Shown: piece after piece, positions 9,987-27,785 of the stretch | Layout of the letters: the number at the start of each line of letters is the position of its first letter | How positions within the stretch are numbered: the stretch's first letter is position 1 | Assembly: GCF_033954455.1 (NCBI RefSeq) | Contig: NZ_CP121473.1 | Coordinates: forward strand, 2,032,501 to 2,096,500 | From: Thiorhodovibrio litoralis | GTDB lineage: Bacteria > Pseudomonadota > Gammaproteobacteria > Chromatiales > Chromatiaceae | DNA: 64,000 nt | Direction of reading: 5' to 3' | Notes under the pieces: model-generated | What the model saw: only the letters and a program-made list of their open reading frames with translations | What the model was told of the DNA's origin: nothing | The model's database searches: none | Translations under genes and position numbers: made by a program

Positions 9987-10062
9987 GCCCAGGTAGCTCA
10001 GTTGGTAGAGCAGTGGACTGAAAATCCTCGTGTCGGTGGTTCGATTCCGCCCCTGGGCACCA
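9987..10062 (+). tRNA. tRNA-Phe (GAA anticodon)
   Basis: A 76-nt cloverleaf. Acceptor arm GCCCAGG (9987-9993) pairs with CCTGGGC (10052-10058), followed by discriminator A and an encoded CCA (10060-10062). The D-arm region is TAGCTCAGTTGGTAGAGC. The anticodon loop reads CTGAAAA with anticodon GAA, and the T-arm contains GGTTCGATTCC. No integrase or repeated tRNA 3' end is seen nearby, so it does not appear to be in use as a phage attachment site in this window. Confidence 0.97.
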
Positions 10063-24737: not shown

Positions 24738-25238
24738 TCAGAGCCGACGACGGATGTCTTCCAGTAATCCGGCAGCCGCTGTTTCGACCAGATCCAGCAC
24801 CCGGTCGAAGCCGCTTGGACCGCCATAATAGGGGTCGGGTACCTCCCGCACCGACGCATTCGGGGCGAAGTCCATAAACATCCGCAGTCGGCTGGTTAGT
24901 CCTGGTGGGCACAGCTCTCTCAGGTCGCGGAAGTTGTCCCGATCCATCGCCAGCACATAGTCGAACGCATGAAAATCCTCCACCGTCGCGCGCCGCGCCC
25001 GAATATCGCCGAGCTCGATCCCGCGCAGCTGCGCAGCCTGAGTGGCGCGCGCATCGGGCGGTTCGCCAACATGGTAGGCATGGGTGCCGGCGGAATCGAT
25101 GGTGATCCGATCGGCGAGTCCCGCCTGTCGGACCAGATGGCGAAAGACGCCCTGCGCCGTTGGTGAGCGGCAGATATTGCCCATACAGACGAAAAGCACG
25201 CGCACGGCGTCTGCTCGGTTGTTGGTGGTGTCGGTCAT
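24738..25238 (-). CDS. Low-molecular-weight protein tyrosine phosphatase
   Basis: A 166-residue LMW-PTP. The catalytic P-loop CX5R is C18-MGNIC-R24 within VLFVCMGNICRSPTAQG, and the general-acid Asp is in VPDPYYGG near residue 137. It hydrolyses phosphotyrosine or related phospho-substrates in the cytosol. In some bacteria it pairs with a BY-kinase in polysaccharide export, but no such kinase or capsule gene is nearby. This divergent type without a kinase may instead act on phospho-arginine or small molecules. A GGGGAG motif precedes the ATG. The kinase gene upstream on the same strand direction ends the local cluster. Confidence 0.92.
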   Translation of the reverse strand: MTDTTNNRADAVRVLFVCMGNICRSPTAQGVFRHLVRQAGLADRITIDSAGTHAYHVGEPPDARATQAAQLRGIELGDIRARRATVEDFHAFDYVLAMDRDNFRDLRELCPPGLTSRLRMFMDFAPNASVREVPDPYYGGPSGFDRVLDLVETAAAGLLEDIRRRL

Positions 25239-25668
25239 GAGGCTCCCCTGTGCTCATTCAGTCCTGATTCAGTGATGGTTTGCGGTCGTCGGCCAGCGCG
25301 ATTGCACTCACTCGCAGGTCATCGAAAATTTAGCACGATTTCCCGATACCAGGGGTGGGCGAGAGTATTAGCATTGGCTGCCGGATATGCTGCATGAGCA
25401 TCCTGGTGCCCAGCCAATCTTCACGCAGACTACCGGATTGGATCTGGCCCATGCACCCGATTGCAGCGCATCGCTAACACTGCACAATAATGGTGCGCTT
25501 GCGCGGCCGGCGGGCAGGGTTTGTGCGAGTAGGGAGTTTTACTTTGCCATGACATTTGTGCAGCGGAGCCTCACCATTTTAGCGCTCGTGCAGGCGCTTG
25601 TTTGATGAAGCACAAAAAATCCGAAATTTCCTGTCGCTCGTGCTGTCGTTGTCCCCGGCGCAAAGACT
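25239..25668. other. Non-coding stretch upstream of the candidate sRNA
   Basis: About 430 nt between the phosphatase start and the sigma-54 promoter. No reading frame here has a credible start, ribosome site or composition. It should hold the minus-strand promoter of the phosphatase gene and, on the plus-strand side, enhancer sites for the small RNA. Apart from the NtrC-like site at 25481-25496, a direct repeat CGCTCGTGC occurs at 25583-25591 and 25635-25643, upstream of the promoter. Confidence 0.5.
25481..25496. promoter_or_regulatory. NtrC-type enhancer site
   Basis: TGCACAATAATGGTGC contains the dyad GCAC-N7-GTGC, the core of the NtrC binding pattern known from glnA-type enhancers. It lies about 200 nt upstream of the predicted sigma-54 transcription start, a normal distance for an enhancer. 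Only one full site is evident. Confidence 0.5.
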
Positions 25669-25684
25669 TGGCACGCTATATGCT
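25669..25684 (+). promoter_or_regulatory. Sigma-54 (RpoN) -24/-12 promoter
   Basis: TTGGCACGCTATATGCTT carries the invariant GG (25670-25671) and GC (25682-25683) separated by exactly 10 nt, with the full TTGGCAC -24 element. Transcription is expected to begin near 25695. The only feature it can serve on the plus strand is the small RNA, since kdsB is convergent. Confidence 0.65.
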
Positions 25685-25694
25685 TAACTAATAT

Positions 25695-25786
25695 CGACGG
25701 ACTCTTTTCCTCTCTCTCCGCCGAGCTCCGTCTTCCAACCTCCTCAGTGGTGAATCGCCCCGGGCGCATGCTCGGGGCATTTTTTT
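25695..25786 (+). ncRNA. Candidate sigma-54-dependent small RNA
   Basis: Predicted transcript of about 92 nt, bounded by a sigma-54 promoter and an intrinsic terminator. The 5' hairpin pairs GACGGA-CTC (25696-25704) with GAG-C-TCCGTC (25723-25732), nine base pairs with one bulged C. It closes an 18-nt loop TTTTCCTCTCTCTCCGCC that is all pyrimidine except one G. A single-stranded linker containing ACCTCCTC, complementary to Shine-Dalgarno sequences, follows before the terminator. There is no credible reading frame. The architecture fits an Hfq-type antisense regulator that blocks ribosome binding sites, probably induced under nitrogen limitation if the NtrC site is real. I recognise no known family. 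Confidence 0.6.
25757..25786 (+). terminator. Rho-independent terminator of the small RNA
   Basis: GCCCCG (25757-25762) pairs with CGGGGC (25773-25778) around a 10-nt loop, followed by A and seven T residues. The T-run is on the plus strand only, so it does not terminate kdsB on the other strand. Confidence 0.8.
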
Positions 25787-25860: not shown

Positions 25861-26664
25861 TTAGCCTTGGCTGACAAGCCCCAGCCACTCCAGCACGGCG
25901 GGGATGTCATCTCGGGTATCCACCCCGGGGCCCAGGGGCGCACAGGCCTCCTCGACTTGAATCCGCTCGCCATTCCACAACACGCGCAACTGCTCGAGTG
26001 ACTCGATTTGCTCCAGCGGAGCCGGCGGCCAGGCGAGAAAGCGCTCCAGAAAGCCGACGCGATAGGCATAGAGGCCGATATGGCGCTGAAAATGGATGCC
26101 AGGGGGCAGGTGGGCGCGCTCGCCAAGGAAAGCATCGCGATGCCACGGGATGGGCGCGCGGGAGAAATACAGCGCCTGGCCATTTGCGTCCGTCACCACC
26201 TTAACCACATGCGGGTCGGAAAGGGCTCGTGCTGCGTCGATCGGCGTCGACAGGGTGGCCATGCCCAGCGCGGGGTGGGAGTCGAGCGCGCCGGCCACCT
26301 GGTTGATCAGTGCCGGTGGCACGCAGGGCTCGTCGCCCTGCAGGTTAACCACGATGGTGTCCGACTCCCAGGCGCGCAGGCGCATGACCTCCCCAATGCG
26401 ATCAGAACCGCTCGGGTGTTGCGCAGATGTCATCACGGTCTCTGCGCCGAGTTCCCGGCAGACACCCGCGATACGGTCGTCGTCGGTGGCTATCAGTACC
26501 TCGCTGGCGAGGCTGGCGCGGGCGCGTTCCCACACATGGGCGATCAGCGGTTTGCCGCCAATGTCGACCAGCGGCTTGCCGGGCAAGCGTGAGGCTCCGT
26601 AACGGGCGGGTATCACCACTTTGAAGGGCGAATTGGGAGAAGCGGAAGACGTTTTCGGGTTCAC
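25861..26664 (-). CDS. kdsB: CMP-KDO synthetase (3-deoxy-manno-octulosonate cytidylyltransferase)
   Basis: A 267-residue KdsB that activates KDO with CTP for lipopolysaccharide core synthesis. I chose the GTG at 26664: it overlaps the lpxK stop as GTGA, the same coupling used along this operon. The longer frame upstream lies inside lpxK and has no family sequence. The nucleotide-binding motif VVIPARYGASRLPGKPL is at about residue 13, and VNLQGDEPCVPP and the TALED-like SLEQLRVLWNGERI stretch are also present. It is the last gene of exbB-exbD-msbA-lpxK-kdsB. The E. coli protein has 248 residues. Confidence 0.95.
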   Translation of the reverse strand: MNPKTSSASPNSPFKVVIPARYGASRLPGKPLVDIGGKPLIAHVWERARASLASEVLIATDDDRIAGVCRELGAETVMTSAQHPSGSDRIGEVMRLRAWESDTIVVNLQGDEPCVPPALINQVAGALDSHPALGMATLSTPIDAARALSDPHVVKVVTDANGQALYFSRAPIPWHRDAFLGERAHLPPGIHFQRHIGLYAYRVGFLERFLAWPPAPLEQIESLEQLRVLWNGERIQVEEACAPLGPGVDTRDDIPAVLEWLGLVSQG

Positions 26665-27785
26665 GCGGATGACTCCGGGGGCTTGGGGGAGACATGGGGC
26701 GACGGGCGCTGGTGGGTCTGTTCCAGGGCGACGAGTTGGGGTTCGAGCGCCTGGAGGAAAGCCTGATTGGGCACGGCCGTCGCCGGCAGATACCAGTGGC
26801 GCAGGTCGGCGAAGGCGCGGCACTTGAGCGCGTCCTTTTCGGTCATCAGCACGGGGCCGGCGGGCCAGTGTTTGCTGTCTTCGCGGCTGAAGGCATGGTG
26901 GTCGGGGTAGGGTAGGCGGGTGATACGCAGGCCGTTGTATTCGAGCAGCGCGAAGAATTGCTCTGGATTTCCGATGCCGGCTACCGCTGCAACGGGGGTG
27001 CCGACGAACTGCGCCAGGGCGCGGGTTTGCCTGGGGTCCGAGAGGTTGATGGCGCGCTGCGGGCGCAGTGCCATATTGGGGCGGCTGTCGTCGCTGCCGC
27101 CATTGGTCAGCAGGATGTCGGCGCGACGGGCGCGGGAGACCGGCTCGCGCAGCGGACCGGCCGGCAGACAGCGGCGATTGCCAAAACCGCGCCGGCCATC
27201 GACCAGCAGAATCTCCAGGTCGCGCCTTAAGCGGTAATGCTGCAAGCCATCGTCGGCCAGGAGCAGGTCGCAGTCGCAGTCTTGGAGCAGACGCCGGGCC
27301 GCGGCGACCCGATCGGCCCCGGCCATCACCGGGCAGCCTGAGCGGTTCGCGAGTAGCACGGGTTCATCACCATAGTCGCGCGGGTCGCCATCAACAGGGA
27401 CGCGTCGGGGCTGATCGCTGCCTTGGCCGCCGTAGCCGCGGGTGAGGATGCCCGGGCGCCAGCCGCGCGCGCGCAGATGCTGCGCAAGCCAGAGTACTAG
27501 CGGTGTCTTACCAGTGCCGCCGACAGTGAGATTGCCCACCACGATGACAGGTGTCGCGATCTGATCTTCCGCCGCCGGCGGCTGGCGCCAGCGCCGCCGC
27601 CATAGGGCGGCGCGGGCCTGGGCAATGGCGCAGTAAAGCCAGCCAAGCGGTGACAGCAGCCAGACAAGCGGGTGCCCCGGACCATACCAAAGGGCCTGGA
27701 GTTGCTGGCTCGGGAAGCCTTGCCGACTCCGCCGGTGGGTGCCGGTAGTCCGCAACGAGAACGGGAATCCTGTGCGGTTGCTCAT
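26661..27785 (-). CDS. lpxK: Tetraacyldisaccharide 4'-kinase
   Basis: A 374-residue LpxK that phosphorylates the 4' position of the lipid A disaccharide at the inner membrane. The Walker A motif VVGNLTVGGTGKTPLV is near residue 82, an N-terminal hydrophobic segment (WLLSPLGWLYCAIAQARAAL) anchors the protein, and LLLADDGLQHYRLRRD is the conserved catalytic-site region. The start overlaps the msbA stop (ATGA) and the stop overlaps kdsB. It is a little longer than the E. coli enzyme (328), with an extended N-terminus and a Pro/Ser-rich tail. Confidence 0.95.
   Translation of the reverse strand: MSNRTGFPFSLRTTGTHRRSRQGFPSQQLQALWYGPGHPLVWLLSPLGWLYCAIAQARAALWRRRWRQPPAAEDQIATPVIVVGNLTVGGTGKTPLVLWLAQHLRARGWRPGILTRGYGGQGSDQPRRVPVDGDPRDYGDEPVLLANRSGCPVMAGADRVAAARRLLQDCDCDLLLADDGLQHYRLRRDLEILLVDGRRGFGNRRCLPAGPLREPVSRARRADILLTNGGSDDSRPNMALRPQRAINLSDPRQTRALAQFVGTPVAAVAGIGNPEQFFALLEYNGLRITRLPYPDHHAFSREDSKHWPAGPVLMTEKDALKCRAFADLRHWYLPATAVPNQAFLQALEPQLVALEQTHQRPSPHVSPKPPESSA

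Follow-up and report, generated by a model that had tools for sequence, protein, structure and literature searches.

A candidate nitrogen-regulated small RNA gene in Thiorhodovibrio litoralis and related Chromatiaceae

Few small RNAs (sRNAs) driven by NtrC and sigma-54 are known. The sRNA from the glnA 3' UTR of Enterobacteriaceae is known as GlnZ. In the accessible part of the report on it, this Enterobacteriaceae glnA 3' UTR product is described as nitrogen-responsive, with sucA repressed in nitrogen limitation (PMC9731577). In Pseudomonas aeruginosa the sRNA NrsZ is induced by NtrB/C and RpoN in nitrogen limitation; according to the portion of the source available, it is 226 nt long, adjoins ntrC, carries the motif ACAGGCAG and has rhlA as a target (PMC9308961). 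NfeR1 (alpha-r14) of rhizobia is likewise linked to nitrogen and exposes an anti-Shine-Dalgarno motif in unpaired regions, and the available sections give it three hairpins with CCUCCUCCC, a sigma-70 promoter and repression by NtrC (PMC10746234). NcS25 of Burkholderia was considered as a relative and rejected, since the accessible text reports no upstream sigma-54 motif and unchanged levels in nitrogen depletion (PMC10117139). For purple sulfur bacteria, no published sRNA driven by NtrC and sigma-54 was found in the literature searched, which included few subscription journals.

Here we describe a locus at 2.058 Mb of the Thiorhodovibrio litoralis genome (5,466,623 bases, single contig) which very probably holds the gene of a trans-acting small regulatory RNA belonging to the nitrogen-starvation regulon, with predicted induction by phosphorylated NtrC (NtrC-P) and sigma-54, Hfq-type action and base-pairing through a conserved core. 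Within the window, i.e. the whole analysed stretch of 64,000 nucleotides, direct reading of the plus strand gives the palindrome, sigma-54 box, predicted start, 5' hairpin, core and terminator with its T7 tail in this order (Table 1), and recovers in place every element of an sRNA gene that a preliminary description of this DNA had claimed. The minimum-free-energy fold yields the same hairpins, and the window transcript comprises two hairpins and a terminator. Transcription of the phosphatase gene diverges from that of the sRNA, and transcription of kdsB converges with it, the true kdsB start lying further inside its longest open frame. At gathering score, Rfam matches the window only once, at a tRNA gene (9987-10059, plus strand).

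Table 1. Predicted features of the sRNA locus, in positions of the window
Feature	Position	Strand	Basis or remark
LMW (low-molecular-weight) protein-tyrosine phosphatase gene, flanking	24738..25238	-	context; identity read from translation
Putative NtrC-type enhancer palindrome, GCAC-N7-GTGC	25482..25496		centre 206 nt ahead of predicted start
Predicted sigma-54 (-24/-12) promoter TTGGCACGCTATATGCTT, GG-N10-GC	25668..25685	+	sequence; conserved box
Predicted sRNA, 92 nt	25695..25786	+	start inferred 12 nt past the C of -12; homologs via covariance model R1
5' hairpin SL1	25696..25732	+	minimum-free-energy fold; covariation; 18-nt loop 25705-25722 with one purine
Ultraconserved core ACCUCCUCAGUGGUGA (window: ACCTCCTCAGTGGTGA)	25738..25753	+	loop UCCUCAGU closed by a 3-bp stem, ACC/GGU; candidate site of target pairing
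Intrinsic terminator	25757..25786	+	GC stem 25757-25765/25770-25778, T7 25780-25786
kdsB, flanking	25861..26823	-	context; longest open frame; identity read from translation

Comparison of 55 homologous loci favors the main reading of the preliminary description, an sRNA gene with a sigma-54 promoter and an NtrC site. A GG-N10-GC box resembling TTGGCAY-N6-TGCTTA lies 45-61 nt (from its C) ahead of the core in 54/55 loci. All 54 boxes score at least 16/19, with 0.46/55 expected in random sequences matched for dinucleotide composition when unspecified positions are scored as matches, and 18.3/55 expected for any GG-N10-GC. The TTGGCAC-type promoter proposed earlier (TTGGCAC...TGC with GG-N10-GC spacing at 25670-25683) is thereby supported, and a -24/-12 promoter at the distance appropriate to an NtrC/sigma-54-activated sRNA is found in all these 54 loci. 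At the 55th locus, that of genome G167 (the sequence there is that of Thiocystis minor), the box is intact and displaced by an insertion of ~110 bp between box and hairpin, as judged by alignment to its congener G152, which lacks the insertion; CATC stands on either flank. This insertion (L118/L009) ends in a CRISPR-repeat-like GC hairpin and ATTGAAA; L009:3000-4400 of Thiocystis minor was searched for a repeat array and had none.

The NtrC core which had been placed about 200 nt upstream is likewise conserved. The exact palindrome occurs between -350 and -40 in 46/55 loci, compared with 0.55 expected in dinucleotide-matched random sequence, so that a putative enhancer as predicted for an NtrC-activated sRNA is present upstream in these 46 and the exact form is missing in 9; when one mismatch is allowed, 52/55 loci have it against 12.1 expected. 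Its centre falls at -148 to -156 in 31 of the 46 loci and at -141 to -177 in 40. The remaining 6 palindromes are further upstream. One of them is that of the window, whose position at -206 is not the customary one and, like the 9 loci lacking the exact form, counts against the main reading; all three genomes of this genus have the site at -203 to -206, G001 with one mismatch. No general peak for a second tandem NtrC site emerged from the 46 loci, 7 of which reach 6/8 matches at +31.

The alignment used for covariation held 55 transcripts (53 distinct rows), with the structure drawn from one member. Standard pairs occupy 84.8% of the cells of the three-helix structure, compared with 80.4% in shuffles and 44-52% in slid versions. 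Pairs altered on both sides number 13/21 versus 8.1 in shuffles (1/500 shuffles as high), and cells altered on both sides 65 versus 24.9 (0/500 as high), figures which should be read with the caution that the shuffles ignore shared ancestry. The check for covariation proposed in the preliminary description thus came out in its favor, and so did that for conservation, since relatives keep promoter, NtrC site, hairpin and terminator. The three helices contribute differently: the core stem is kept via G-U changes (99.4% of cells paired), the terminator has 92.4% of cells paired with 4/8 pairs altered on both sides, and SL1 has 9/10 pairs altered on both sides in some row and 73.6% of cells paired, in a 5' region that aligns poorly. 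Independently of any alignment, 50 distinct 5' parts gave a mean folding z of -1.88, and 39/50 were below -1.

Family members are about 77-95 nt long. The core ACCUCCUCAGUGGUGA, which in the window includes ACCTCCTC (25738-25745), is identical in 48/55 loci. The 18-nt loop with a single purine, emphasized previously, is present in the window and is near-pure pyrimidine in some genomes, but as a family trait it did not hold up; what is conserved family-wide is the stem and the core rather than the pyrimidine loop.

We also looked for the same arrangement elsewhere in the genome of T. litoralis. Scanning 1.66 Mb (1.6 Mb of chromosome plus the window) with a 13-position consensus from the literature gave 370 GG-N10-GC sites scoring at least 10/13, the sRNA promoter being one of 5 sites at 12/13. 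Five of the 370 have an exact palindrome within 320 nt upstream: those of the sRNA, of glnA (two palindromes) and of ntrB, and two inside open frames. By chance ~2.5 such combinations would be expected, and a looser scan of the same 1.66 Mb (607 sigma-54-like sites, 35 palindromes) gave 5 where ~4 were expected. The count is therefore near chance, and the within-genome argument rests on which genes were found. glnA and ntrB, identified here from their translations and adjoined by ntrC at 309066-310433, are textbook NtrC targets, and the assignment of the sRNA to sigma-54 and NtrC is strengthened because these two genes of the same genome share its arrangement. Moreover, NtrC, RpoN and Hfq each exceeded curated cut-offs in 26/26 carrier genomes tested, of 56 carriers. 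As regards an Hfq-dependent sRNA, a predicted Hfq gene in all 26 (own genome included) combines with the T7 tail, which is consistent with that class.

In the searches made here, carriers of the sRNA were found in part of one family. A DNA search gave a match in 8/55 genomes, own included; a second match in G023, of 25 nt, is without promoter and terminator. A covariance model built from 10 transcripts matched 75/194 family genomes at E <= 0.01, and 56/194, in which core and sigma-54 box were both seen, are counted as carriers. The other 19 comprise five terminator-only matches (G180, G010, G070, G059 and G127, rejected as carriers), G016, whose copy is a probable diverged ortholog, and 13 others left out. 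A second match in G139 (L159) was rejected and a second one in G153 (L151) left out of the count, and G006 is a carrier outside the 55 loci used for the promoter, palindrome and alignment counts. Genome G153 has two diverged copies (L146, L151), and both of them come with a sigma-54 box and with an NtrC palindrome in exact form; its assembly shows 6% contamination, and the copies are thus possibly from two organisms. Of 80 named loci fetched through the phosphatase, two have the core (Thiocystis minor and Thiorhodococcus mannitoliphagus). In an order-wide search all matches among those listed belong to the same family, 132 genomes being without a match, and a class search of 369 genomes at E <= 0.001 matched 8: the own genome and 7 terminator-type matches without core or correctly spaced box.

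Among family genomes, carriage is strongly associated with photosynthesis genes. Matches of the bchL/bchX type (NifH-family photosynthesis proteins) were found in 50/56 carriers and 26/138 others, shared ancestry being uncorrected, and nifH itself in 47/56 and 42/138, a weaker association. The sRNA is carried by 3/26 genomes with nifH and no bchL/bchX-type match, 6/13 with the reverse combination, 44/63 with both and 3/92 with neither; the split was inferred from match number and score at E <= 1e-50, and a partial nifH of G189 was counted as present.

The genomic surroundings are less constant than the gene. A KdsB or phosphatase motif lies near 40/55 homologous loci (KdsB 30, phosphatase 25; 2.1-4.8 kb examined per locus) and neither at 15/55. 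Six of these 15 (L141, L144, L145, L148-L150; ~4 kb each examined), from two genera, keep both the box and the exact palindrome, and that they do so in other surroundings is an argument for promoter and palindrome serving the RNA. By our own reading, KdsB and phosphatase enclose two further proteins in some genomes, one of them small, Gln/Arg-rich and apparently secreted, the other OsmC-like. At L136, L142 and L146 the gene of such a Gln/Arg-rich protein is upstream on the minus strand, divergent from the sRNA; its cluster, of which no member was seen in the window, takes in 20/57 loci, some of which are possibly wrong frames.

According to our hypothesis, nitrogen shortage would lead phosphorylated NtrC to bind GCAC-N7-GTGC and to activate RNA polymerase carrying sigma-54 where it sits on the -24/-12 box. 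The resulting RNA of ~92 nt would end at the intrinsic terminator, whose U tail suits binding to Hfq, the presumed partner of the RNA. SL1 would shield its 5' end. The invariant core, kept open as a small loop, could then pair with target mRNAs and would most likely block or alter the translation of a few of them. A more specific joint reading, which we think unlikely, is that purple sulfur bacteria use one ultraconserved RNA to couple their phototrophic energy metabolism with nitrogen starvation: whenever NtrC is active, the core loop, in its similarity to the end of 16S rRNA that holds the anti-Shine-Dalgarno, would silence a few constant target mRNAs, probably of photosynthesis or sulfur oxidation.

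The core is complementary to AGGAGGU, the Shine-Dalgarno consensus. The pairing with Shine-Dalgarno regions suggested in the preliminary description gained no support, insofar as no conserved target and no significant preference of the core for translation starts were found. CTGAGGAGG-N-ATG had 13 matches in 5 carrier genomes, and the 11 listed are in unrelated genes save one duplicated inside G002; with ATG or GTG and 40 carrier genomes, nothing was conserved among the matches listed, as judged on the matched strings. GAGGAGGT-N-ATG gave 57 matches in 3 genomes, of which 30 were translated, with no conserved single genes; the repeats were multi-copy sequences within or between G001 and G000, plus one pair in G002. 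When 1469 open frames from 1.6 Mb of the T. litoralis genome were scored for duplexes, candidates emerged from that genome alone, and the leaders of glnA and ntrB pair weakly with the sRNA (-14.8 and -13.7 kcal/mol). Core pairing was no better at translation starts than mid-gene (+0.18 kcal/mol; mean of shuffled seeds +0.64), and 4/40 shuffled seeds were at least as good in what is a weak test with crude first-ATG starts. An earlier apparent start preference was rejected, since the starts had been picked by energy and hence introduced a bias.

These negative or non-significant target searches are the reason why a sponge role is retained as a rival: the RNA could be real and under NtrC/sigma-54 control, but instead of pairing with mRNAs by its core it would behave like CrcZ towards Hfq/Crc and serve as a decoy, be it for Hfq, for a different sRNA or for some RNA-binding protein. 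Besides the lack of a conserved mRNA target, the identity of the core in so many loci, more than expected for a multi-target seed, would suit such a role. There is also a precedent in CrcZ, which binds and sequesters Hfq and whose expression depends on RpoN, as stated in the accessible part of the source, where its length is given as 407 nt (PMC9308961). The family RNAs are short by comparison, however, and have one conserved loop without a repeated motif, and the complementarity of the core to the Shine-Dalgarno consensus suggests mRNA pairing. On balance a sponge seems rather improbable to us.

Other alternatives concern the promoter region. The activator might be another than NtrC, a view fed by the 3 to 10 NtrC-type proteins (E <= 1e-100) that each of the 26 tested carriers holds, or the palindrome might serve the divergent phosphatase gene alone. 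Against these views, glnA and ntrB share the palindrome, it is exact in the six loci without phosphatase or KdsB motif, and no minus-strand sigma-54 box scoring at least 10 accompanies it in the window. We regard this pair of explanations as quite improbable. Single motifs are frequent in a G+C-rich genome, as the 607 loose sigma-54-like sites illustrate, and one might suspect a chance assembly without any gene; that idea is already contradicted by covariation, by near-fixed spacing and by the tens of genomes in which all the elements are conserved, and we give it practically no credence. The preferred reading is still an NtrC-induced, base-pairing sRNA of phototrophic Chromatiaceae. If true, diazotrophic phototrophs would control nitrogen at a post-transcriptional level too. 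For the candidate there are now coordinates of promoter and enhancer, a covariance model, a set of 56 carriers and a strong association with photosynthesis markers.

As to known RNAs, the sRNA locus had no Rfam family at gathering cut-off, an outcome in favor of the preliminary description, and the proposed dissimilarity to Qrr and GlmY/GlmZ also stands, neither being among the 12 matches that Rfam gives for it at E <= 10. The best match, RF02278 (Betaproteobacteria toxic sRNA), reached 25.8 bits (E 0.0022), short of the cut-off of 50 bits for membership. RF02278 and its sub-threshold relatives in Gammaproteobacteria are likewise short RNAs in which a hairpin containing CCUCC immediately precedes a GC terminator, and differ in hairpin and core; among 20 such loci a sigma-54-like box was seen within 140 nt in 1/20 and an exact NtrC palindrome in 0/20. 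RF02278-like RNAs were detected in 50/185 genomes of the class at E <= 0.001, 1/185 above cut-off, with none in the own genome. The two kinds of RNA may have a remote ancestor in common: the diverged copy of G016 (L152, ~1960-2100) has an RF02278-like core, CCTCCTTGGTGG, together with GG-N10-GT and a pair of NtrC palindromes, spaced by 32 bp and each with one mismatch, and genes resembling those of phosphatase and OsmC are nearby. RF02278-like RNAs below cut-off are common in Gammaproteobacteria (L167-L186), and Rfam may define the family too narrowly. At L185 the core is similar to that of Chromatiaceae, and a sigma-54-like box is present.

With NfeR1, as far as its source describes it, the sRNA shares the nitrogen link and the anti-Shine-Dalgarno motif, whereas NfeR1 is transcribed from a sigma-70 promoter and subject to repression by NtrC. 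Membership in alpha-r14 was rejected, as CCUCCUCCC is absent from the window transcript with its two hairpins and terminator. GlnZ, in the accessible account, is released from the glnA mRNA, whereas the candidate is an independent gene with its own promoter. A homolog of NrsZ was rejected as well: ACAGGCAG occurs in 0/55 transcripts, the predicted RNA has 92 nt, and the sRNA and ntrC lie far apart at the positions given above. Unlike NrsZ, as portrayed in the part of its source available, the present RNA of ~92 nt adjoins kdsB and has an unrelated core; like NrsZ, it would be controlled by NtrC and sigma-54, as predicted here from sequence.
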